Positions 25,399 through 63,828 of a DNA stretch of 64,000 nucleotides are shown here, in pieces. The stretch spans positions 31,577 through 95,576 of the forward strand of contig CANRAU010000007.1 of the NCBI GenBank assembly GCA_947628665.1, read 5' to 3'. A model generated the notes under the pieces. The model saw only the letters and a list, made by a program, of their open reading frames with translations, ran no database searches and was not told the DNA's origin. The stretch is from an uncultured Clostridia bacterium (GTDB taxonomy: Bacteria; Bacillota; Clostridia; Oscillospirales; Acutalibacteraceae). The number at the start of each line of letters is the position of its first letter. Positions within the stretch are counted from its first letter, which is position 1. The translations under genes were made by a program, and so were the position numbers.

Positions 25399-26253
25399 TT
25401 AAGCAACGAACTGACTTCGCAATTCAAGCGGGGTCAGTTTTGTTTTGAATTGAATACGCTGATGGTTGTAAAAGTGGATGTACTCAGCTATGAGGAGGCG
25501 AGCCTCCTCATAGGTTTTGAGTTTGACACGGTAAATGCACTCTGTTTTGAGAATAGAGAAGAAATTTTCAGCCAGAGCATTGTCATAGGGATTACCCCGT
25601 CTTGACATTGACGGCGTTATGCCGTATGATTGAGTTAGCTTAAAGTACGCTTGTGAGGTATACTGAAAGCCTTGGTCACTGTGGAGTTGCAGCTCTGCGG
25701 TGACCTTCTCTTTTCTCTTGGCCGCTCTGATCGTACTTAAAACAAGATTGATGTTCTGCTCCGTTCCGGTCTTGTAGGCCACAATACTGTTGTCATACAG
25801 ATCACGGATAACGGACAGATACAAAGTGCCTTGTCCGGTCTTGATGTATGAAATATCTGTCACCCACTTTTGGTTTGGTCTTTCTGCCTTAAAATCTCTG
25901 TTTAACAGATTGGGATAACGATGCAGATATTCTCCGTAATTGCGGTATTTCTTTCTTCTCACCACAGATAGCAGATTATATTTCTGCATAACTCGCAGGA
26001 TGGTTTTCGGATTATGATGAATCTTCTGTTTTTCAAGCCAGATATGTACTCTGCGGTATCCGTATGTTTTACCGCATTCCTCTTGACACTCCCGTATCTT
26101 TTCCGCCAGCGGCAGATCCTTTGCCGGCATATCCATCCTTGATACAAAGCCGTAGTAGCCACTTCTGGATACTTCAAAAAATCTGCACATTTCACTGATG
26201 CTGTATTTATCTTTGTACCGGTAGATCACCCTGTATTTTACGCTTGTTCTCAC
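25399..26253 (-). CDS. IS3-family transposase OrfB (DDE integrase core)
   Basis: 284 aa starting at GTG 26253. It has an HTH_21-like start, then the rve core: WVTDISYIKTGQGTLYLSVIRDLYD (first D), LHSDQGFQYTS (second D) and the E in DNALAENFFSILKTE. The tail HFYNHQRIQFKTKLTPLE is typical of IS3. The GTG overlaps the TGA of orfA (GTGA), so reinitiation or frameshifting may link them; no A6G slippery site is visible. Confidence 0.92.
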   Translation of the reverse strand: MRTSVKYRVIYRYKDKYSISEMCRFFEVSRSGYYGFVSRMDMPAKDLPLAEKIRECQEECGKTYGYRRVHIWLEKQKIHHNPKTILRVMQKYNLLSVVRRKKYRNYGEYLHRYPNLLNRDFKAERPNQKWVTDISYIKTGQGTLYLSVIRDLYDNSIVAYKTGTEQNINLVLSTIRAAKRKEKVTAELQLHSDQGFQYTSQAYFKLTQSYGITPSMSRRGNPYDNALAENFFSILKTECIYRVKLKTYEEARLLIAEYIHFYNHQRIQFKTKLTPLELRSQFVA

Positions 26254-26585
26254 TTCCTTTCGGTGAGCGAGAGAAAATCCCGCATCAGTTCATTTTCCAT
26301 TTCCAATGATTTGATCTTTGCTTCCTTACAAGCAAGGATGTATCTGAGTTCGGCAATCTTATCTTCCTCGCTGACTACATAATCCTTTGGCGGTCTGCCT
26401 CTCTTTTTCAGGGCGATTCCTGCTGCAAGTTTTCGCTGCTTTCTGTTATATCTTTTTGTGAACTCATGAATTTGCTCTGCTGTAAATCCTAGTCTTTCTC
26501 CTATTTCTTTTCGCGTTAGTCCTTTTTCTTTCAATTCTATTATCTCTTTTTCATACGTTTGGATATGTCGATATTTCTTTGCCAT
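26250..26585 (-). CDS. IS3-family OrfA, helix-turn-helix DNA-binding protein
   Basis: 111 aa. The N-terminal HTH (KEIGERLGFTAEQIHEFTKRY) would recognise the terminal repeats. A middle basic block (KKRGRPPKD) is followed by a leucine-zipper-like end (LACKEAKIKSLEMENELMRDFL). It is the first gene of the IS; its stop overlaps orfB. Confidence 0.85.
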   Translation of the reverse strand: MAKKYRHIQTYEKEIIELKEKGLTRKEIGERLGFTAEQIHEFTKRYNRKQRKLAAGIALKKRGRPPKDYVVSEEDKIAELRYILACKEAKIKSLEMENELMRDFLSLTERK

Positions 26586-28003: not shown

Positions 28004-28053
28004 ATTTGGTTGCGGGGGTGGGACTTGAACCACACGACCTCCGGGTTATGAGC
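28004..28053 (-). repeat. attL: 50-bp core with the displaced 3' part of tRNA-fMet
   Basis: Identical over 50 bp to 63749-63798. It holds the anticodon-to-CCA part of the initiator tRNA, and identity ends abruptly at 28054 (GCGCATATT here, CCCGACGAG in the complete gene). It marks the left junction of the prophage. Confidence 0.92.
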
Positions 28054-28124: not shown

Positions 28125-28296
28125 ACATTTCTATAATGAAAGTAACCCGTTCACTGACACCGTTTAGTCTTTAATATAATATCTAATATCAGACCGACAG
28201 TATATTCGCAAGACAGAATTCATTTATAAAGCAAAAAGCGAGACGGATATAAATCCTATCTTGCTTTTTTACTTCCCCACTTCCGGCAAGGGCTTT

Positions 28297-49374: not shown

Positions 49375-50190
49375 TCACCAATTAACGACCATGTTTACAG
49401 CTTCTTTTTGCTGTTCCTGCGTGAGACGCGTATATATAGCTGTCGTCGATACGCTCGAATGTCCCATTACATCCGCAAGCAGTGAAAGGTTCGGATTTTT
49501 CTTTAGAAACTCTATTGCAAATAAATGTCTAAATGAATGCGGGTGCATTACCTTTTGATTGATTTTATATCTTTTAGAAAGTTGCAAAAGCATTTGCGAA
49601 AATCCTCTTGTAGATATTTGATTTCCATATCTGTTTACGCAAAGATAGTCATTCGGCTTCAAATCTTTATAATATTCTTTTGCGTCTTTCTGAAAAGAAT
49701 ATGGAATATATATCCGGCGTATTTTCCCTTTAGTCCACATTTCTGCATAACCACGGTCAAAATCAGATTTCTTTAACCTTATATATTCGCTGATCCGTGC
49801 CCCTGTCACTGCAAGAAGTTTAATATTAAAATACCATTTATAATTTTTGTCATTTAAAAGGCATCGTAATAATTTATTGTACTCTTCTTCAGAAATAACA
49901 TTGCTAATCGCCGTAGCTTGATGAACCTTTAATGTTTTAATCCTATTTTCTCTGTGATTAACCATGTCGCAATAAGCGTTATAGGCGTTAATTTTAATAT
50001 TTATGCTTTTAGGCTTTAATCCGCTTTCTTCCAAAACCTTTTTCCATTCAAGGGCATTTTTCTTGTTATCTTCATCATAGAGTTGAAAAAATTGTTTTAT
50101 TGCGGTAATATATGCCCTTATAGTGTTTACGGACAATTCTTTTTCTTGTAAATAAGACCAAAATTTTTCTATTTCATTCTTTTTATCCAC
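49375..50190 (-). CDS. Second tyrosine recombinase (XerC/D-like) inside the early region
   Basis: 271 aa from GTG 50190 behind AGAGGAAAC. A SAM-like core-binding domain (ELSVNTIRAYITAIKQFF) precedes the catalytic domain. All residues are present: Arg in TGARISEY, Lys near KGKIRRIYIP, HPHSFRH, GHSSVSTT and Tyr in AIYTR. The DNA here is visibly AT-richer than the flanking phage genes. It is far from both att sites and is not the element's own integrase. It might resolve dimers, act as an invertase-like switch, or be a captured host gene. Confidence 0.9.
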   Translation of the reverse strand: MDKKNEIEKFWSYLQEKELSVNTIRAYITAIKQFFQLYDEDNKKNALEWKKVLEESGLKPKSINIKINAYNAYCDMVNHRENRIKTLKVHQATAISNVISEEEYNKLLRCLLNDKNYKWYFNIKLLAVTGARISEYIRLKKSDFDRGYAEMWTKGKIRRIYIPYSFQKDAKEYYKDLKPNDYLCVNRYGNQISTRGFSQMLLQLSKRYKINQKVMHPHSFRHLFAIEFLKKNPNLSLLADVMGHSSVSTTAIYTRLTQEQQKEAVNMVVNW

Positions 50191-52777: not shown

Positions 52778-55285
52778 TTATGCCTGCCCCACGTTCCCAA
52801 GCAAATCGAACAAAGTAGGCACGTCCTTTTCTTCATCCGCTTCGCGCAGATACCCGACACCGTCTCGAAAATATCCGTTGTTCAACTCAATTCCGATGCC
52901 GTATCTGCCGTTATCGACAGCGACCTTTGGAACGGTCATGATGCCGCCGAACGGATCTAAAACAACGTCGCCTGGATTGGAGTATCGGTTAATGATTCTT
53001 TCCACAATGTCGATCTGCAGTGGACAAACGTGCATTTCCTGCCGCCGTCTGCTTTGTGTTGAATTAAGCGTGCGCATACGCAAAATATCATCCCATACTT
53101 CATCTGACCAGCTTCCCGGAGCGACTACCATAAAGCTCGCGGGAAGTTTGTTTTCGGCGTCCAGTTCCTTTGCCAGCTGAACGTGTTCGGCATAATCATA
53201 AACATGATCTCGGCTATACTGCCGATAAACCTTTTGCAGATTTGTGACAGGTGCTGATACAAGTTCCTCTTTCGTGACCAGCCGATCTCCGCTTGAACGC
53301 CAGTAGCCGTGTGCGTCGATTTGCCACTGTGCGCGAGTGTATTCCTCTTTCGTTTTGACTACAGGAACATCTGCATAGGCTCTCGACGTGTCGCTCGGCA
53401 ATTTCCGAAAAAGCAATATGTATTCCGGACAACCGACGCCCATCTTCGTGCCGTCCTTGCATTGCTCCGTCCATCCGAGGCGATAGGTTTGATTGTTTTC
53501 TCGGACAACATCGGTCACGACCGTAATCATACCGAAGTATTGAAATCCATGCTGCATATAGTGCCTGATGCACATGGCGTGGAATGGTTCCATGGTCGGA
53601 AATCCTGTCCCCGTCGCATTGCCGAATAAAACCCTGTCCTTAACATGAACCGCCATAACGCGCCCCGGTTGTAAAATACGAAGCAACTGCGGAGATAGGA
53701 AATCCATCTGTTCAAAGAAACGCTTTGTGTTCTCGTTATGCCCGAAATCGTTGTAGCTCGGTGTGTATTCGTAATGGTTGGAAAACGGGATACTTGTAAG
53801 GATCAAATCTATGCTGTTTTCATCCATTTCCGTTGTTTCCAAAACACAGTCATTGTTGACGGCTGTGAAATGCTTCCCTTGTATTTGCACTCTCTCAACT
53901 CCTATCGTTCGCGCGAGCTTGTCAATCTGCGATACACCCGCAAGCCCGTATTTTTTCACGATCTCCTGCATTTTTTGGGAAAGGTAGTCATGATTTTTCC
54001 ACTTTTCCATCAGCGTATCTAAAATCGGTTGCTCCGCTTCGGTATAAATGATATCGATGATGACCTGCTCCGTTTGCAAAAATCTGTAAATGCGGTGAAT
54101 GGCTTGTATGAAATCATTGAATTCATAATCAATTCCCACAAATATGGCGCGGTGACAATGTTTTTGAAAATTGCAGCCCGACCCCGAGATGCTCTTTTTG
54201 GTCGCAAACAGTCGTGTTTTTCCGTTTGAAAAGTCTAAAACACGACGCTCCCGTTCGTCATAGTCCATAGCGCCGTAAATATCGACCACGCCCGGAATTT
54301 GTCTTTTGATTTCATGCCGCTCCGCTTCGAGATCATGCCACAGAATAAAATGCGCCTCGGGGTCACTGTCTATGATCTCCTTCGCTTTTGCAATACGCTT
54401 GCATATGGATACCTTTTTTTCATTCGCCGCATCCGATAGACTGACGGCCGCATCGCGCAAAAACTTGATCTGTCCGTCTTTTTCCTGCCCCTCAAAGTAT
54501 GCGTCCGCTATCTTGTGCGTGCGCACGTCTAAAGGCGGCAACGCATAGCCTGTGTCGTCATAGCCTAAATCTGACGGCAAGTGAATGAATAAAGCCCATG
54601 TCGACATCCAAATCCAAAACTCTTCTTCTTTGTGCGGATACAATGTCAGATTGTTCGCTTTTGTGCTGTCACGCTTGAAAAAACGCGTTAGCGCCTGCCC
54701 TGTATCCATAACCTCTAAATATCCTGCATAGTGGATAAGCTCTTTGTACTTATTGGGAGATGGCGTCGCTGTGGATACGAGCTTATACTCTACCCCTTTG
54801 AATTTATCTAAAAAGGTCTGATATGTCTTACTGCCGAAGCTGCGCAAAACGGATGCCTCATCAAGACTTGTCGCGGTAAATCGCTTGGGATCTATATCGC
54901 CGTCCCGCACGCGTTCATAGTTTGTCAGCACTATATCCGTATCGGCCGCTTCCGCCTCTGCCATCGTCTTAACGTATTTGGGGGGCTTTTCCCAACCTAA
55001 AATATTTACTGCGTCCATTTGGAACTCTTGTTTAACGCCTAACGGTACGACGATTATCGCTTTGCCGCCTTTGTGCGCCGTTATGATTCTGCAAAATTCC
55101 AGCTGCTGAACCGTTTTTCCAAGTCCGAAGCTCTCAAAAAGCGCGCGTCTGCCGCCGCGTACCGCCCACTGCACCGCATCCCGCTGATGCGGTTTCAGTT
55201 TCGGGCTGATTTCGCTTTGGCTGATTTCAAATCCCGATATGGGCGCAACTTCGATCTTGGATTTTAAGAATTGGATATAATTCAT
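52778..55285 (-). CDS. Fusion of SNF2-like DEAD helicase and DNA methyltransferase
   Basis: 835 aa. Residues 1 to about 460 are an SF2 helicase: KLKPHQRDAVQWAVRGG, Walker A-like ESFGLGKTVQQL, SLDEASVLRSF in place of DEAH, STATPSPNKY, and AIHRIYRFLQ as motif VI. Residues about 490-820 are an N4/N6 methyltransferase. Motif IV is LTSIPFSNHYEY, where most enzymes have S/DPPY. Motif I comes last (VLDPFGGIMTVPKVAVDNGRYGIGIEL). Similar fusions are known in clostridial phages. Start overlaps the previous stop (ATGA). Confidence 0.9.
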   Translation of the reverse strand: MNYIQFLKSKIEVAPISGFEISQSEISPKLKPHQRDAVQWAVRGGRRALFESFGLGKTVQQLEFCRIITAHKGGKAIIVVPLGVKQEFQMDAVNILGWEKPPKYVKTMAEAEAADTDIVLTNYERVRDGDIDPKRFTATSLDEASVLRSFGSKTYQTFLDKFKGVEYKLVSTATPSPNKYKELIHYAGYLEVMDTGQALTRFFKRDSTKANNLTLYPHKEEEFWIWMSTWALFIHLPSDLGYDDTGYALPPLDVRTHKIADAYFEGQEKDGQIKFLRDAAVSLSDAANEKKVSICKRIAKAKEIIDSDPEAHFILWHDLEAERHEIKRQIPGVVDIYGAMDYDERERRVLDFSNGKTRLFATKKSISGSGCNFQKHCHRAIFVGIDYEFNDFIQAIHRIYRFLQTEQVIIDIIYTEAEQPILDTLMEKWKNHDYLSQKMQEIVKKYGLAGVSQIDKLARTIGVERVQIQGKHFTAVNNDCVLETTEMDENSIDLILTSIPFSNHYEYTPSYNDFGHNENTKRFFEQMDFLSPQLLRILQPGRVMAVHVKDRVLFGNATGTGFPTMEPFHAMCIRHYMQHGFQYFGMITVVTDVVRENNQTYRLGWTEQCKDGTKMGVGCPEYILLFRKLPSDTSRAYADVPVVKTKEEYTRAQWQIDAHGYWRSSGDRLVTKEELVSAPVTNLQKVYRQYSRDHVYDYAEHVQLAKELDAENKLPASFMVVAPGSWSDEVWDDILRMRTLNSTQSRRRQEMHVCPLQIDIVERIINRYSNPGDVVLDPFGGIMTVPKVAVDNGRYGIGIELNNGYFRDGVGYLREADEEKDVPTLFDLLGNVGQA

Positions 55286-55680
55286 ATGTCCTTTCTCCCT
55301 GTTATCGTTGCCCCATCACTTTTTTTACTACAGATCGTTGCTTTTTTGAGCGCTTCGTCCAAATCAAAGCTGCTTGTTTTACTCGGTCTGTTGTCGTAAT
55401 TTCCCTCCATGATTTTTGAAAAGTTTTCGGGCTTTAGGATCCAGTCGATCCCGCATTTGCCCCACCGCCCGTTGCGGCCGCTTAAGAAATCGCTTTTTTC
55501 AACCCGGGCAAAGACTTCACCGAGCTTATTGCAACCGTATCGGCGGATCGCTCGTTTTGCGCGGTCGGTCCTGCCCGGCGACCACGTGTCCACATCCATC
55601 GGCTTCGGCAGGCTCGGACATTTTTGTATAAACAGATCACGCAGATATTTAAGGTCTTCCTTGGTGACTTTTATTTCCAT
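55282..55680 (-). CDS. Phage replication-associated protein (DnaD-tail-like)
   Basis: The start is ATG 55680 (MEIKVTKEDLKYLR) behind GGAGAG, 132 aa. SDFLSGRNGRWGKCGIDWILKPENFSKIMEGNYDN (in part) is the pattern seen at the end of many phage replication initiators and after DnaD-type domains. It lies between the Rep gene and the helicase fusion. Confidence 0.65.
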   Translation of the reverse strand: MEIKVTKEDLKYLRDLFIQKCPSLPKPMDVDTWSPGRTDRAKRAIRRYGCNKLGEVFARVEKSDFLSGRNGRWGKCGIDWILKPENFSKIMEGNYDNRPSKTSSFDLDEALKKATICSKKSDGATITGRKDI

Positions 55681-55929
55681 TTTGGCTCTCCTTTTTTTGC
55701 TGTTCAAATGCAGAAAAACATAATTTCGAGCCTTTTTTCAGGCTCTTTTTGTCGGCCTTTCCGCTTCGGGTTTTCGCATATATAGTTTTTTATTGAATGA
55801 TAAGAAATCCCGTGTTTTCCGCTTCGGGGACGCCTCAAAAAACACTCGCGCGCGTATTTCCCGCTTTTGTCATAAGGGGCTGCGGTCTACACACCCTTTT
55901 TATTTGCGGCGTTTTTTGACCCCGGGGGA
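55681..55929. other. Short gap with a small hairpin
   Basis: No convincing gene in 249 bp. It holds GAGCC..GGCTC (55728-55745) followed by TTTTT on the plus strand. It could be a weak plus-strand terminator or part of the 3' UTR of rep. Confidence 0.4.
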
Positions 55930-56856
55930 CTATGGAATGTAGTCCGTCGTGATCCATTCGTCCTCCTCCCACCGAGGCGGCGCGCCATCGGTTCGATACA
56001 GAACCGCCGACAAATACCAATGCCCATTGTATGTGTTGAATCTTGCGTAGCCACGCAGGAAGCGATACCCTTTGTATATCCTTTCCCAAAACGCCCGATC
56101 ATCGACCCGCTCGGTCGCCATGCGTGCGACCGTCGAGCGTGCGATCATCCCGTCCTTTATCTTTTCTTTTGGGCGTTGAAGGTTTCGCGAGCAGCTGAAT
56201 CGCTTTGCACCCTGCGGGTCTTTGCTCATGTATTTGGCGGCCGCTTCGGGTCCGAACTTGTCCGGCTGATAGTTATTGCAATTTGTTCGCAGTCCGTTCG
56301 TCCACATTGCCTCCAATGTCTTGCTGTCAATGCCGCCTGTCAGGAACAAATGAAAATGCCAGTTCACGCGCCCTGCATAGATTCCTCTTTTGTAAGTCTG
56401 CTTTTCGATTACGTAAATGTATTTGAACGGCGCTTCCAGCTTTTGGATCGCCGCCCGCAGCTTCTCCACGGCGGACGATAAGTACGGATTTTCCGGCATC
56501 TTCGCCGCTGCGCTTTCTGCCGCTGCCAAGTCTTTACGCAACCGCTTCGCTTCCGATTTCCTCTTTGTTTTCACGCGGCGAAGATAGTTTACTATATCCC
56601 GCCGCGCTTCCGCTTCCGACTGTGGGGCTTTTGCAGGTTCGTATGTCGGGTGCATGAGATAGTCCGTTGTATTAAAGTTCGCATTCGCGTATCGGATCAG
56701 CTTTTTTGTAGCCTGCACCTGATTGTATCTTTTCTGCTCCGCCGTGGATGGCTTTGTCTTCGGCGCGCGGGTTGGCAGGCGGCGACCGTCTGCGAAAACC
56801 GGGTAGAAGTCCGCTTCCAAGAGCGGCCCTGAGTATGTTCGCTTTTCTCGTTGCAC
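55930..56856 (-). CDS. HUH-type rolling-circle replication initiator
   Basis: 308 aa from GTG 56856 after GGGCGGGATAAA. Residues about 145-175 have YIYVIEKQTYKRG and the HUH motif VNWHFHLFLTGG. The active Tyr candidate is in EAAAKYMSKD, followed by FSCSRNLQRPK, as in Rep proteins of small replicons and single-strand phages. A long helical N-terminus precedes it. It would nick an origin to start replication. Its partner gene is the DUF6017 protein upstream. Confidence 0.75.
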   Translation of the reverse strand: MQREKRTYSGPLLEADFYPVFADGRRLPTRAPKTKPSTAEQKRYNQVQATKKLIRYANANFNTTDYLMHPTYEPAKAPQSEAEARRDIVNYLRRVKTKRKSEAKRLRKDLAAAESAAAKMPENPYLSSAVEKLRAAIQKLEAPFKYIYVIEKQTYKRGIYAGRVNWHFHLFLTGGIDSKTLEAMWTNGLRTNCNNYQPDKFGPEAAAKYMSKDPQGAKRFSCSRNLQRPKEKIKDGMIARSTVARMATERVDDRAFWERIYKGYRFLRGYARFNTYNGHWYLSAVLYRTDGAPPRWEEDEWITTDYIP

Positions 56857-56868
56857 TTTATCCCGCCC

Positions 56869-57321
56869 TCACTTTCTCGCGAGCTGCGGCATATCCGCAA
56901 AGACGTGATTGTTGACCCGTCCTGTTAATTCAAACACGGCGTTGTATAGGGCGGTGCGGAGATATGTTTTTGTATGCTTGATTTCATATGTCGCTTTCTC
57001 GTAGTTTTCGATCACGTGCAGGACGTGTTCGTGGCAGAGGCGATTGTAGATTTCTGCCACCCATTCGGCAGTCAGAGCATTTCCGGCGATCCGCACGGTG
57101 GCGGTATCCGGCAGTTTCAAGACCTCCGCAATGATCATCGCAATTTCTTCCGCTTGCTGTACATCTTTTTGATCGAAGCAATCAAAATCGATTTGCGCCT
57201 TTACGGTTTCGAGAAGTGCCGAGAACGACATCGCCCTTTTCACCTCTGCGGGGAAATGCCGGACTTGACTTGACGCTGACTTTGACTTTTCGCATAACGC
57301 TTGATGATTTCTTTGTTCCAT
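56869..57321 (-). CDS. Stand-alone DUF6017-like replication protein
   Basis: The start is ATG 57321 (MEQRNHQALCE) behind GAGAGGTCG, 150 aa. VKAQIDFDCFDQ, TVRIAGNALTAEWVAEIYNRL and IKHTKTYLRTALYNAV match the domain usually found at the C-terminus of RepA_N-type plasmid initiators (DUF6017). Here it is a separate protein directly upstream of rep, so the two may form one replication module. Confidence 0.75.
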   Translation of the reverse strand: MEQRNHQALCEKSKSASSQVRHFPAEVKRAMSFSALLETVKAQIDFDCFDQKDVQQAEEIAMIIAEVLKLPDTATVRIAGNALTAEWVAEIYNRLCHEHVLHVIENYEKATYEIKHTKTYLRTALYNAVFELTGRVNNHVFADMPQLARK

Positions 57322-57420
57322 TTTGGCGACCTCTCTGTTTTCGTTCAAATTTGCGCGGCCTTGGTTGATGAAATACTATACAATACAAGGCCGCTCGCGG
57401 GCATAAAACCCGCTATCCTA

Positions 57421-57449
57421 TTGACTTTTCGCCGCCGCTGTGCTATCAT
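57421..57449 (+). promoter_or_regulatory. Plus-strand promoter in the rep leader
   Basis: TTGACT, 17 bp, TATCAT on the strand opposite to all nearby genes. The start would be near 57456. Confidence 0.6.
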
Positions 57450-57455
57450 AAATAT

Positions 57456-57530
57456 GTAGTTAGGACAGGGCGGCGTAAAGTCGTTTTGCCGGGGCTTTCC
57501 GAGTGGGATCGGAAAGCCTTTATTTTTTTG
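57456..57530 (+). ncRNA. Candidate short antisense/counter-transcribed RNA
   Basis: About 75 nt from the plus-strand promoter to a perfect 10-bp terminator stem (GGCTTTCCGA/TCGGAAAGCC, loop GTGGGA, then TTTATTTTTTT). A first small stem CGGC/GCCG lies before it. No ORF fits. It is antisense to the leader of the DUF6017-rep transcript, the place where plasmids encode copy-control RNAs. Confidence 0.55.
57493..57530 (+). terminator. Intrinsic terminator of the short RNA
   Basis: A 10-bp perfect stem with a 6-nt loop and a long T-run on the plus strand only. Confidence 0.85.
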
Positions 57531-57545
57531 TGTCCGGCGGTGTGC

Positions 57546-57767
57546 TCATGTCCGCTTCGCGGCGTGAATCGGGCGACCGTTTCGGATGTTTTGGATCATG
57601 TCGAACACTTCCTGCACGGATGCTTCGCCATACATATGTTGCAACCGTTCCATGGCGGAGCTTGTCCCGTCGGTTTCGGTGTTTTTAAACTTGGATTTTC
57701 TGCAATCGCAATGTTCGCCTGGGTCTAAATTTGCCCCGCAGTAGGGGCAGGTACGATAAAACGCCAT
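57546..57767 (-). CDS. Small zinc-ribbon protein
   Basis: 73 aa. CPYCGANLDPGEHCDC gives a zinc ribbon; the rest is helical (SVQEVFDMIQNIRNG). GGAGGTCAC precedes the start. It is probably a DNA- or protein-binding accessory of the early region. Confidence 0.75.
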   Translation of the reverse strand: MAFYRTCPYCGANLDPGEHCDCRKSKFKNTETDGTSSAMERLQHMYGEASVQEVFDMIQNIRNGRPIHAAKRT

Positions 57768-57823
57768 GCTGTGACCTCCTTTTTAATAATTGTTACAAAT
57801 TACTCCTCCTGAGAATTTACTCC

Positions 57824-58912
57824 TTAATATCCAACGCCGATATAGTCGAGTACCCGCGACCAGCCGTATTTTTCGCCCGTGTTCGGGTCGGTACAACAGT
57901 TGAACATCCAATATTCCCATTCTTTTGGATTTCTCTCTTTCAACTGGTCAAATCTGTGCGGGCGTTTTTCGAGATGAATTCCAAATCCGCACATGGAACA
58001 CCCTGTACGTTGCGCCTTCGTGGTGTATAGCGTTCCATCGTCGCGTCGTTCGATTGTTCCGTAAATTTCCGGAACAGGCACGTTAAGGTCAAGTGCAAGC
58101 TGAAGAAGATCCTGCCGATTGAATATTGCAAACGGTGCTGATCTAATGGTCGATTTTCCAAAATAGTTGCATCCATTTATCCGCAAAGATTTAGCACGTC
58201 TTCCACCCTCCGAAGCCATAAGCCCTAAGAAGGGAACGCTGTTATGTTCTTTTGCCCAGTCGTCGCAGGGTTTTTCCTTTAAGTAATAGCAGCATTTAGA
58301 TGACACCTTAAAATTTGGTATTTGATAGTTTGTTCCCTCAACGTCATTTGCATATCCGCCGAATTTTTCAAGCCATTTCTGTGACATTTTCATTCTGCTA
58401 TTTTTTTGAAACCCACCGTATGCACCTGTTTCCCCGGTGATGATCGCATGCCTAACGGTCTGATTCTTTTCTGTAGGATGAGCAAGCGTTTCAATTTTTG
58501 CCGCGATCTCTTTTGATAAAACTGGGAAGCCGAATTCCTGTAATATTTCCGGCTTTGTCCAGTAGTGAGGGTGCCCTGCGTCATCGATGTACTTTACCGT
58601 GGATTTCAACCGTTCAATTCCAAGCTGTTTATGTACTTCCTGTATGCTTTTATCTTCCAAGTGCGAAACACTGATTCCAGGTGCATCGATGTGAATTGAA
58701 TTTAGAAAAAGAAAAAGCGTGATACTATCTAAACCACCGACCGAAACGTGATAGTTTAACCCTCGGGCATCGCATTCATTAACAAACTCCCGCGCTCTGA
58801 TCTCCGCATGGCGCACCTTGAGTTCGTAAGGTAGTTGTTCCTTGACCATGAAAGCGGAGATACGCTCCTGCCCGCCAATCCTCTCCATGCGTTCTAATAC
58901 ATTCTCAGTCAT
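57824..58912 (-). CDS. PAPS-reductase-like (PP-loop) phage protein
   Basis: 362 aa starting immediately after the previous stop (TAAATG). The PP-loop is SVGGLDSITLFLFL where the family has SGGKDS, so the Lys is replaced. ISVSHLEDKSIQEVHK, GLMASEGGRRA and a C-terminal CSMCGFG follow the phage adenosine-phosphosulfate-reductase-like pattern, with extra Cys (SKCCYY, CC near the end). Sulfate reduction is unlikely. DNA or tRNA sulfur chemistry, or a role against host defence, are possibilities without proof. Confidence 0.75.
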   Translation of the reverse strand: MTENVLERMERIGGQERISAFMVKEQLPYELKVRHAEIRAREFVNECDARGLNYHVSVGGLDSITLFLFLNSIHIDAPGISVSHLEDKSIQEVHKQLGIERLKSTVKYIDDAGHPHYWTKPEILQEFGFPVLSKEIAAKIETLAHPTEKNQTVRHAIITGETGAYGGFQKNSRMKMSQKWLEKFGGYANDVEGTNYQIPNFKVSSKCCYYLKEKPCDDWAKEHNSVPFLGLMASEGGRRAKSLRINGCNYFGKSTIRSAPFAIFNRQDLLQLALDLNVPVPEIYGTIERRDDGTLYTTKAQRTGCSMCGFGIHLEKRPHRFDQLKERNPKEWEYWMFNCCTDPNTGEKYGWSRVLDYIGVGY

Positions 58913-61022: not shown

Positions 61023-61072
61023 AGGAGGATTTTATGTATTGTCAAAAATGTGGAAAAGAAGTGAGCGGAAAC
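60992..61072 (+). repeat. 81-bp direct repeat, copy 1
   Basis: Matches 61741-61821 with one mismatch. It holds the last codons of the ImmA-like gene with a CCGAAGCG/CGCTTCGG hairpin, the AGAGGAGG ribosome site and the first 13 codons of the next gene. Confidence 0.9.
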
Positions 61073-61714
61073 TACTGCTCAAATTGCGGAGCGGCTGTCG
61101 TCACCTTGCCTAACGACGCCATAGAGCAGACGGCGACGGAACCTATTACAACTTCTGCCCCCGATTTCCCTGTTAAAAAAGTCAGGTCCTCTAAGCCTCT
61201 ACATATAATCGGGATTATTCTTTCTATTCTCAATTTTTTTGCCACAGCTTATTTAATCTTTACTTCTGCATTATCATTTGATGTCGATTATGTCGACGTT
61301 ACGATATGGATAGCAGCTTGTTGCGCGCCATTTTCCCTCTCGGTACTCCTCGGTTCTGCTTTCCGAGGAAAAAGTAAAATTGTGTCATCTATTTTTTATA
61401 TGCTCTCCATCTTCCCCTCAATCTTTTTGTGCTGCATAAATGTTGCTTACACGGGGGACTTTCTTATATCTGCACTTCTCACGATTCCATTTGTTGTATG
61501 TGCTTGGATTTTTGGAAATCGCTGTGTACCCCAAAAAACTGCAAAGGTACAGATTTTAGCCTATGCTTTATTTGTCGCTTTGATTGGCGGTTTGGTTCTT
61601 TATCTATATAGCGGGGAAATTGCCCTCAATCATGCTGCAAGTGAATTGTTTGAAGGAATGGCCGAATACAGTTTTATGGATGAAGTCGAAACAGCAAAAA
61701 ATTTGTTTGAGTAA
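61034..61714 (+). CDS. Zinc-ribbon multi-helix membrane protein
   Basis: 226 aa behind AGAGGAGG. The N-terminal zinc ribbon (YCQKCGKEVSGNYCSNCG) and a linker lead to about five TM helices (IIGIILSILNFFATAYLIF, among others). A short cytosolic or external tail follows. It lies in the lysogeny module between protease and integrase, so it is probably made by the lysogen. Superinfection exclusion or a stress role is possible; no proof. Confidence 0.75.
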   Translation: MYCQKCGKEVSGNYCSNCGAAVVTLPNDAIEQTATEPITTSAPDFPVKKVRSSKPLHIIGIILSILNFFATAYLIFTSALSFDVDYVDVTIWIAACCAPFSLSVLLGSAFRGKSKIVSSIFYMLSIFPSIFLCCINVAYTGDFLISALLTIPFVVCAWIFGNRCVPQKTAKVQILAYALFVALIGGLVLYLYSGEIALNHAASELFEGMAEYSFMDEVETAKNLFE

Positions 61715-61740: not shown

Positions 61741-61821
61741 TCCCGAAGTGATCCGCTTCGGGGAAGAATAGAGGAGGATTTTATGTATTGTCAAAAATGT
61801 GGAAAAGAAGTGAGCGGAAAC
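61741..61821 (+). repeat. 81-bp direct repeat, copy 2
   Basis: Second copy, 749 bp from the first, with the hairpin, the ribosome site and the same opening MYCQKCGKEVSGN. Here the hairpin is not inside a gene. Confidence 0.9.
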
Positions 61822-62355
61822 GACACGCCCAAATCTGACCCCGCCCCCGCTGCGGCGGCAAGCAACGGTTCTGCGGAAAATGTTCCACCCGTCGAAAGCA
61901 CCGCTTCGACGGCGGACATCACCTCTACAGTCGGCGTTGATCCGACAAGCGACTCCGCCTCTACCAAAAGCTCCGATTTTAAAATTAAGATATTTTCCTA
62001 TATTATCGTTTTAATTCTCGTCTTTGGTATTTCTTTTGGCGTCGTTCATTTTCTGTTTGGCGGTAAGGAGGAAGAGGAACAACACCCGACTTTTATTGAT
62101 AATAAAGTTGCCGCTGAAATCGCCTTAGAGGATTATGTCAAGTATCCCGACACATTAGAACTCTCCTTCTACGAGGAAGATTGGCAGTTTGTAACAAATG
62201 ACAACAAGCGTGTAAAAATGGAAAGCACCTTTACTTGCCAAAATGCATTTGGCGTACCTGAACGGCATAGTTTCGTCTTAATCCTCACTTATTCTGATGA
62301 TTACGAAAATTTCACAATAAATGATTTGACTATCGACAAAGAGGAATACATATAA
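61783..62355 (+). CDS. Membrane protein with half zinc ribbon and extracellular domain
   Basis: 190 aa. It shares the first 13 residues and the ribosome site with the previous gene but loses the second CxxC, so the ribbon is incomplete. A Ser/Thr/Ala/Pro linker, one TM helix (IIVLILVFGISFGVVHFLF) and a soluble beta-rich domain follow. The domain resembles small exported lipoprotein-like proteins. It precedes the integrase. Confidence 0.75.
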   Translation: MYCQKCGKEVSGNDTPKSDPAPAAAASNGSAENVPPVESTASTADITSTVGVDPTSDSASTKSSDFKIKIFSYIIVLILVFGISFGVVHFLFGGKEEEEQHPTFIDNKVAAEIALEDYVKYPDTLELSFYEEDWQFVTNDNKRVKMESTFTCQNAFGVPERHSFVLILTYSDDYENFTINDLTIDKEEYI

Positions 62356-62426: not shown

Positions 62427-63563
62427 ATGCCAAAAAAATCCAACACGCGCCGTGCCGACGGAAGAATCGCTGTACAGGTATATCTTGGACGGGTAAACGG
62501 AAAACGGCAATATAAAACCGTCTATGGGAAAACACAGAAAGAAGCCGATCAAAAGGCTACTGCTCTGAAAGCAAAATTGAATAAGGGACTGGATATATCC
62601 GGTGGAAATGATACTTTCGGCGCATGGTCTACGTTTTGGTTACAGTCTAAAAAAGTAAACGTTGTGCCTGAGCATTATCATCTTCTTGAAAGTCGGCTGG
62701 CTTTTTTTACCCAAAGAATATCACAACAAAAAATAACAAGCATTCGTCCTGTAGATTTGCAGCCCATGTTTGATGAATTGTCCATTTGTAACCCGCACAC
62801 AGGAAAGCCTTCCGCAAAGAAAACACTGCGTTCCTATCACCAAATTCTTGTTTCTGTATTTGATTATGCAATTGATAATCGGATAATAGACTTCAACCCA
62901 GCTGAGAGAATTCACTTGTTGAAAACTGCTCCGCAAAAAACGCGTCGTGCATTAACCAAAGAAGAACGAAGGCGTGTTGACGAATTCGAGCATAGAGGAA
63001 AAACAGCAATCATGCTTTTGATGTACTCCGGTCTGCGCCGTGGCGAGGCAACCGCGCTTCGTTGGTCTGATATTGATTTGGTCAACGGCACTATCACTGT
63101 TTCGAGATCATATAACTATAAAGCAAAGGCTTTTAAATCTCCAAAAAACGGAAAATCCCGATGCGTTTTTATACCTAATAAATTAGTTCAATATTTGAAA
63201 CAAATACCTCATAAAAGCGAAAATGATTTTGTTATCGTTTCCGCAAAAGGAACTATGATGTCTATTGACGCATGGGATCGCCTTTTGGAAAGCTATCTTT
63301 TTCAAATGAACTATAAGTATGGCGGATTTACTTGCGGCTTACACACAAATGAAAAAATACCAATGGTGATCGAACCGTTTGGTCTACATGACCTTCGCCA
63401 TACATTCTGCACGATGATGTATGAAGCTGGAATTGACGTGCTTGTTGCGCAGGAGCAAATGGGACATGCCGACCCGAAAACTACTTTAAATATTTATACA
63501 CATCTGCAAATGGAACATAAAGCAACAAATATTTCAAAATTGAACGATTATTTGTCTGAGTAA
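62427..63563 (+). CDS. int: Prophage integrase, tyrosine recombinase
   Basis: 378 aa. An arm-binding AP2-like N-terminus (RIAVQVYLGRVNGKRQYKTVYGKT) is followed by a core-binding SAM-like domain. The catalytic domain has SGLRRGEATAL (Arg), GLHDLRHTF (His-Arg), GHADPKTT (His) and NIYTH (Tyr). It lies 185 bp from attR, the usual place. It recombines the tRNA-fMet core. Confidence 0.95.
   Translation: MPKKSNTRRADGRIAVQVYLGRVNGKRQYKTVYGKTQKEADQKATALKAKLNKGLDISGGNDTFGAWSTFWLQSKKVNVVPEHYHLLESRLAFFTQRISQQKITSIRPVDLQPMFDELSICNPHTGKPSAKKTLRSYHQILVSVFDYAIDNRIIDFNPAERIHLLKTAPQKTRRALTKEERRRVDEFEHRGKTAIMLLMYSGLRRGEATALRWSDIDLVNGTITVSRSYNYKAKAFKSPKNGKSRCVFIPNKLVQYLKQIPHKSENDFVIVSAKGTMMSIDAWDRLLESYLFQMNYKYGGFTCGLHTNEKIPMVIEPFGLHDLRHTFCTMMYEAGIDVLVAQEQMGHADPKTTLNIYTHLQMEHKATNISKLNDYLSE

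Positions 63564-63748: not shown

Positions 63749-63828
<80 letters not shown>

Follow-up and report, generated by a model that had tools for sequence, protein, structure and literature searches.

A tailed prophage of a gut bacterium within the 64,000-nt stretch of DNA analysed here (the window) carries in its early region what is probably a module for lytic rolling-circle replication, in which an HUH-type initiator (Rep) would nick a conserved element, a separate DUF6017 protein would recruit the host replisome and a small counter-oriented RNA would exert regulation. Domains and motifs were identified, and operon, element, hairpin, promoter and terminator were found conserved in related loci; nicking, rolling-circle replication, recruitment and RNA function are inferred. 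As far as we found, the unit has not previously been described, and no mention of DUF6017 was found in the literature searched; the parts of the unit recur in dozens of related viruses.

Rep and its setting in a tailed prophage

The following features define the prophage and the genes of the module:

28004-28053 and 63749-63798: att repeats, 50 bp, at tRNA-Met
62427-63563: integrase
56869-57321, minus strand: free-standing DUF6017 protein, 150 aa, assigned by Pfam; proposed host-replisome recruiter
55930-56856, minus strand: HUH-type replication initiator Rep (REP_ORF2-G2P), 308 aa, assigned by Pfam, PHROG and motifs
55282-55680, minus strand: C-terminal domain known from wHTH phage initiators/helicase loaders, here free-standing, assigned by profile matches

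The prophage is complete and spans 35.7 kb between the att direct repeats. Its structural genes, encoding terminase, portal, capsid, major tail and tape measure (1225 aa) proteins, identify it as a tailed phage, and the Rep and DUF6017 genes are located in its early region.

Several neighbouring genes were recorded in passing. Directly downstream of the module, 52778-55285 (minus strand) encodes an 835-aa fusion of an SNF2-type helicase and an N6/N4 DNA methyltransferase, which the related prophages L025 and L026 carry as well. Besides the integrase the prophage encodes a second tyrosine recombinase (49375-50190, minus strand), and beside the integrase two adjacent plus-strand genes (61034-61714 and 61783-62355) share an identical starting sequence (MYCQKCGKEVSGN...), a repeated zinc-ribbon start. 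Just outside attL, a gene pair at 25399-26585 (minus strand) resembles an IS3-type transposase as judged by eye.

An earlier note proposed an HUH-type Rep, and profile searches and motif conservation bear this out for 55930-56856. The protein matched Pfam family PF23343 (REP_ORF2-G2P) over the cut-off (E 7.5e-7), phrog_3584 'replication initiation protein' (E 1e-61) and phrog_3419 'rolling circle DNA replication initiation' (E 4e-7). Its HUH motif WHFHLF provides H167 and H169, and the candidate catalytic Tyr209 is situated in AAAKYMSKD; these three residues are invariant across 58 relatives, as are N60, F61 and W185. Y209 is the only invariant tyrosine and there is no tyrosine at -4. P2 gpA uses two catalytic tyrosines four residues apart, and classification of Rep as a two-tyrosine enzyme of this type was rejected, as only one tyrosine is conserved. 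An AlphaFold2 model of Rep reached a pLDDT of 91, and about 9 of its 20 top Foldseek matches in the PDB were HUH replication proteins or domains, none of them at E<0.001, including SIRV1 ORF119 (probability 0.89), pMV158 RepB, Vientovirus and PCV2. In hhalign, Rep and P2 gpA aligned weakly at the HUH and AKYxSK motifs (E 0.0037, probability 9%).

Judged by these profile matches, Rep belongs to the known REP_ORF2-G2P/phrog_3584 phage family, which also occurs in temperate phages that have been cultured. The family occurs in 19 records of the phage collection, but among 72,556 plasmid records a single one contained it, NZ_CP124276.1 (L216/L217), a 34-kb phage-plasmid of Paraclostridium sordellii that carries capsid, tail and ParM genes. 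This replicon has the same Rep together with the origin-like element described below, plus a separate HTH_36 protein near ParM, and lytic rolling-circle and plasmid theta replication may possibly be divided between the two systems. The view in the earlier note that a plasmid-type replicon is built into a siphovirus holds in one respect and fails in another: Rep itself is of phage type, whereas the cis layout is plasmid-like, because a nick-site-like element lies upstream of the initiator operon and is accompanied by a counter-oriented small-RNA gene.

DnaB and DnaC homologues had been described as missing from the phage. PF03796 (DnaB) was indeed absent from the prophage contig, with host genome copies on other contigs only, and a search of nine related viral records, fragments among them, did not find it either. 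When the early-region ORFs were scanned with Pfam, no DnaC/IstB was detected. A phage DnaB is thus lacking as claimed, but the statement is not quite true as a whole, since the protein encoded at 55282-55680 is a helicase-loader-like domain that matched phrog_19658 (E 2e-17) and phrog_10469 'DnaD-like helicase loader' (E 4e-14). The tail of this protein (55321-55374, minus strand; SSFDLDEALKKATI) is that of the host DnaD-like (DnaB_2) protein, and the match includes 36 contiguous identical bases at the host locus L204 (G000:C5, ~102130). The host has a single DnaB_2/DnaD-type primosomal protein, the one with the matching tail, and the shared sequence is apparently a recent capture of the host primosome tail by the phage. 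The gene was found in this phage only among the relatives searched and is therefore probably accessory. It nonetheless hints, like DUF6017, that free-standing C-terminal modules recruit the host primosome.

Pairing of free-standing DUF6017 with Rep

That a free-standing DUF6017 gene directly precedes Rep, as the earlier note had stated, was confirmed. The two genes are on the same strand with 12 nt between them, and the 150-aa product matched PF19481 (DUF6017) with E 1.4e-10 and 42 bits, compared to a cut-off of 27. Pfam detected no second domain in this protein and no N-terminal RepA_N winged helix. In a structure model the protein is small and mostly helical (pLDDT 88 overall, ~97 in the core). 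Foldseek found no resembling PDB structure for it, DnaD and RepA included, and no PDB profile matched the protein. With neither profile nor fold in common, a structural relationship to the C-terminal domains of DnaD or RepA was dismissed, which leaves analogy only. In the viral library, significant matches were restricted to other DUF6017 proteins, one of them a 'Replication initiator A'.

The co-occurrence of the two domains, for which an HMM search had been proposed, was found in every free-standing case. In 26 of 26 viral-contig loci fetched by a DUF6017 alignment alone, Rep was located immediately downstream on the same strand; these loci include several near-duplicates, and the query alignment was built from Rep-linked members. 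A scan of the viral contigs with a single DUF6017 protein gave no matches. Independently of this alignment, application of the Pfam model to 200 host-family genomes yielded five intact free-standing DUF6017 genes, all of which lie next to Rep and precede it (one frameshifted fused gene and contig-edge fragments were not counted), and the fused DUF6017 proteins inspected in these genomes (~265-370 aa) were never beside Rep. Ten fused proteins were scanned and showed HTH_36 over the cut-off in five and RepA_N in two, in each case at the N-terminus, so that the fusion to RepA_N that had been taken as the normal context of DUF6017 does occur, but fusion to HTH_36 is commoner. In one fused relative, the N-terminus resembles RepA_N N-terminal domains of known structure (E 1e-26). 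On the evidence of gene neighbourhood, DUF6017 and Rep form a real unit, adjacent far more consistently than chance would allow, and the strict pairing of the free-standing form with an HUH Rep offers a lead to the role of the C-terminal halves of plasmid and phage initiators.

DUF6017 is present in 33 of the 77 Rep loci. Its presence changes 11 times on the Rep tree (n=75), at least seven times on well-supported branches, and Rep and DUF6017 distances correlate over the 33 pairs (Mantel r 0.30, p<=5e-4). A local HMM detected no DUF6017 in four close Rep relatives (L039, L042, L049 and L063), and it is lacking in most distant Reps. PF19481 was likewise found nowhere in the genomes or record of these four relatives; it is weak on the free-standing form, having also missed L038, and the local HMM is the better evidence for absence. 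This distribution indicates that DUF6017 is ancient or recurrent, but optional. Since it is absent from four close and most distant Reps and changes repeatedly on the tree, it can be dispensed with or replaced. A helical insert at residues ~100-143 of Rep was considered as a partner of DUF6017 and rejected, as it is absent in many DUF6017-bearing Reps and present in some DUF6017-less ones.

An origin-like element, a hairpin and a predicted counter-oriented transcript

Upstream of DUF6017 the following elements were identified:

57359-57393, minus strand: conserved 35-nt origin-like element CGGCCTTGTATTGTATAGTATTTCATCAACCAAGG, predicted nick CTTG/TA
57397-57413, minus strand: hairpin GCGGG-TTTTATG-CCCGC, directly 5' of the element
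57421-57449, plus strand: sigma-70-type promoter TTGACT-17-TATCAT, oriented opposite to the operon
57456-57529, plus strand: predicted ~70-nt small RNA, antisense to the leader (57546 to 57321)
57491-57520, plus strand: intrinsic terminator of the predicted small RNA, plus T-run
57421-57482: long imperfect inverted repeat of promoter/spacer with small-RNA body; 57423-57445 pairs with 57460-57482

Read on the Rep-sense strand, 57359-57413 consists of the hairpin followed by CGGCCTTGTATTGTATAGTATTTCATCAACC. With a matrix built iteratively from upstream regions, the element was the best-scoring site in 54 of 77 Rep loci at a score >20, whereas shuffled loci scored no higher than 11.6; as related sequences, the loci do not count as independent events. 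The element is situated on the Rep strand, just before DUF6017 where this gene is present and otherwise before Rep, and in two loci inside the annotated Rep 5' end. Its invariant positions include C-T-N-G-T. The element pattern has a single match in the window and in the 2-Mb host genome, at the same site. In 2.9 million viral contigs, two scans for exact patterns returned 21 stretches. Three of these are copies of a single unrelated sequence, and all others that are readable far enough run into DUF6017 and/or Rep. In some distant Rep clades (Toutatis, Arawn) no copy of the element was found. The hairpin varies in sequence while its pairing is kept, with 45 distinct stems in the 54 loci and a stem score of 14.1 vs 8.7 in shuffles.

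The phiX174 origin (annotated nick 4306, CTTG/A) contains CTTG and GACCA blocks at a spacing similar to that in the element; the position matrix of the element does not score phiX174. Origins of the pC194 type are nicked at CTTGATA (PMC10378824). Because the element resembles these nick sites, hairpin and CTTGTA element together constitute a candidate double-strand origin. Being common to so many loci, the element permits prediction of replication starts in dozens of gut phages annotated only with a 'replication initiation protein', and it makes nicking testable with short oligonucleotides. Interpretation of the element as a forward promoter was discarded, as the layout does not fit. An origin within rep, of the kind that P2 and pT181 have, was not retained either; the element upstream was the first to stand out.

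Two further regions were scored. A weaker match to the element at 28162-28196 (minus strand), near attL and with no Rep nearby, reached 19.5, while the best of 60 mononucleotide shuffles reached 16.7; it could be a chance match, an arm site of the integrase or another nick site. The region downstream of Rep (55681-55929), considered as a place for the origin and set aside, is weakly structured (z -2.5).

The counter-oriented promoter is surrounded in the window by genes that are all on the opposite strand. Promoters with at least 9 of 12 matches were present in 40 of the 54 loci, and the distance to the element is 26-32 nt in most of them. A terminator was found in 66% of 38 loci tested vs 6% in shuffles, and the predicted RNA length in these loci was mostly 62-73 nt. 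Rfam gave no match in 55500-58000. The inverted repeat obtained a pairing score of 16.9 vs 11.6 in shuffles, and folding of the region as single-stranded DNA gave a z of -7.4 in the window and a mean z of -3.6 over 50 loci, compared with -0.45 in control regions, suggesting that the repeat could fold in single-stranded DNA. These features would suit an antisense regulator as well as a folded single-strand origin, or the two combined; rolling-circle plasmids have both devices (review PMC5703833). If true, a conserved small RNA beside the origin would add a new handle on how phage replication is regulated.

Proposed mechanism, alternatives and known systems

We propose that the module serves lytic replication in a temperate tailed phage family of Clostridia with relatives in lactobacilli. 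The single-tyrosine HUH Rep would nick its own strand at CTTG/TA after the hairpin, within 57359-57413, and extension of the free 3' end by host polymerase would lead to rolling-circle replication and provide concatemers for packaging. DUF6017, as a separate subunit, would most likely recruit the host primosome, meaning a DnaB-type helicase, a primase or both, to the origin once nicked or to the displaced strand, a role that we liken to that of P2 gpB beside P2 gpA. This assignment is drawn from the fused relatives, because the protein matches neither DnaD nor RepA structures. In this phage the protein encoded at 55282-55680 may also recruit host helicase or primase. The ~70-nt RNA, as an antisense RNA, would most likely restrain DUF6017-Rep expression and may also prime complementary-strand synthesis. 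In a broader and decidedly speculative generalisation, a widespread class of tailed phages might carry a complete plasmid-style rolling-circle control locus, comprising a double-strand origin, a counter-transcribed ~70-nt RNA with the dual role of limiting the initiator and, folded in the displaced strand, priming its copying, and a split initiator in which DUF6017, as the replisome-recruiting half of theta-type initiators, would act in trans with the HUH nickase.

Rep might nick the element while DUF6017 acts not as a recruiter but as a regulator or an origin-binding accessory, such as an opener or copy-number modulator. Its optional presence on the Rep tree, its small and mostly helical nature and its place between element and Rep, where regulators are frequently found, are consistent with such a role. 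However, in the fused relatives DUF6017 is C-terminal to a DNA-binding winged helix, which implies that DNA binding is normally provided by another domain. Moreover, the N-terminus of a fused relative matches RepA_N, and the C-terminal domain of pSK41 RepA, to which DUF6017 has no detectable similarity, binds the DnaG primase (PMC5703833); we consider a regulatory or accessory function rather unlikely and favour recruitment. Use of the whole module for plasmid-like maintenance or mobilisation instead of lytic replication appears very improbable. It is suggested by the presence of Rep in the 34-kb phage-plasmid, but that replicon also has ParM and the separate HTH_36 protein, the phage in the window encodes an integrase and is bounded by att sites, and in induced temperate Latilactobacillus phages Rep is found in the early region with no other initiator annotated there.

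The cis-acting sequences were weighed in the same way. Hairpin and CTTGTA block could represent the operon promoter or an operator of its regulator instead of an origin, as the block is AT-rich and located in the operon leader, and an autoregulatory Rep-binding site would likewise be Rep-specific. Yet the block has no -35/-10 layout, the promoter that is present points the opposite way, the block is tied to Rep and not to DUF6017, and variation of the hairpin sequence with retained pairing, together with a CTTG as in the phiX174 and pC194 nick sites, argues against this; we regard a promoter or operator as improbable. For the counter-oriented transcript, function as a single-strand origin, that is a folded promoter priming the complementary strand, and not as an antisense regulator is a possibility that we entertain with some reserve. 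The promoter is contained in one arm of the conserved inverted repeat and the partner arm in the RNA body, so that this pairing is impossible within the RNA; furthermore, the displaced strand is predicted to fold strongly, and the template of the RNA would be the displaced strand, which is a requirement of a single-strand origin. Against this, a terminator at a near-fixed distance in two thirds of the loci is easier to reconcile with a discrete small RNA than with a primer. The two roles may also be combined.

The closest known systems are other phrog_3584/PF23343 phages, namely Terrisporobacter TPDSL_ph2, Latilactobacillus TMW phages, Faecalibacterium Toutatis and Butyrivibrio Arawn, which have the same Rep family as their main replication gene, annotated as replication (initiation) protein. 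The upstream element is also present in TPDSL_ph2 and in two Latilactobacillus phages checked. They differ in that DUF6017 was found in none of the five checked, and origin and small RNA are unannotated. With P2 (Peduoviridae gpA/gpB) the module shares an HUH nickase and a small separate protein, proposed here for a comparable lagging-strand role, in a tailed temperate phage; in the P2 annotation, gpB is 'required for lagging strand synthesis' and its gene is upstream of that of the nicking gpA. The nick sequence differs, however, and the P2 origin is inside gene A, whereas here it would be upstream of the operon, before DUF6017. DUF6017 was not retained as a gpB homologue, as the two are not related. 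In the theta-type initiators that clostridial plasmids, integrated elements and phages encode, RepA_N or HTH_36 is combined with the common DUF6017 domain, but there DUF6017 is fused to the winged-helix DNA-binding domain and here it is a separate polypeptide accompanying an HUH nickase. Rolling-circle plasmids (pC194, pMV158, pT181) have, in most families, a nick-type element that precedes rep, as the candidate origin does here, and a folded single-strand origin with an RNA-polymerase promoter, to which the predicted layout is similar, and the 87-nt counter-transcribed RNA of pT181 is similar in size to the predicted ~70-nt RNA. In contrast to these plasmids, the replicon described here is a 35-kb tailed phage with a Rep of another family and an extra DUF6017 subunit.
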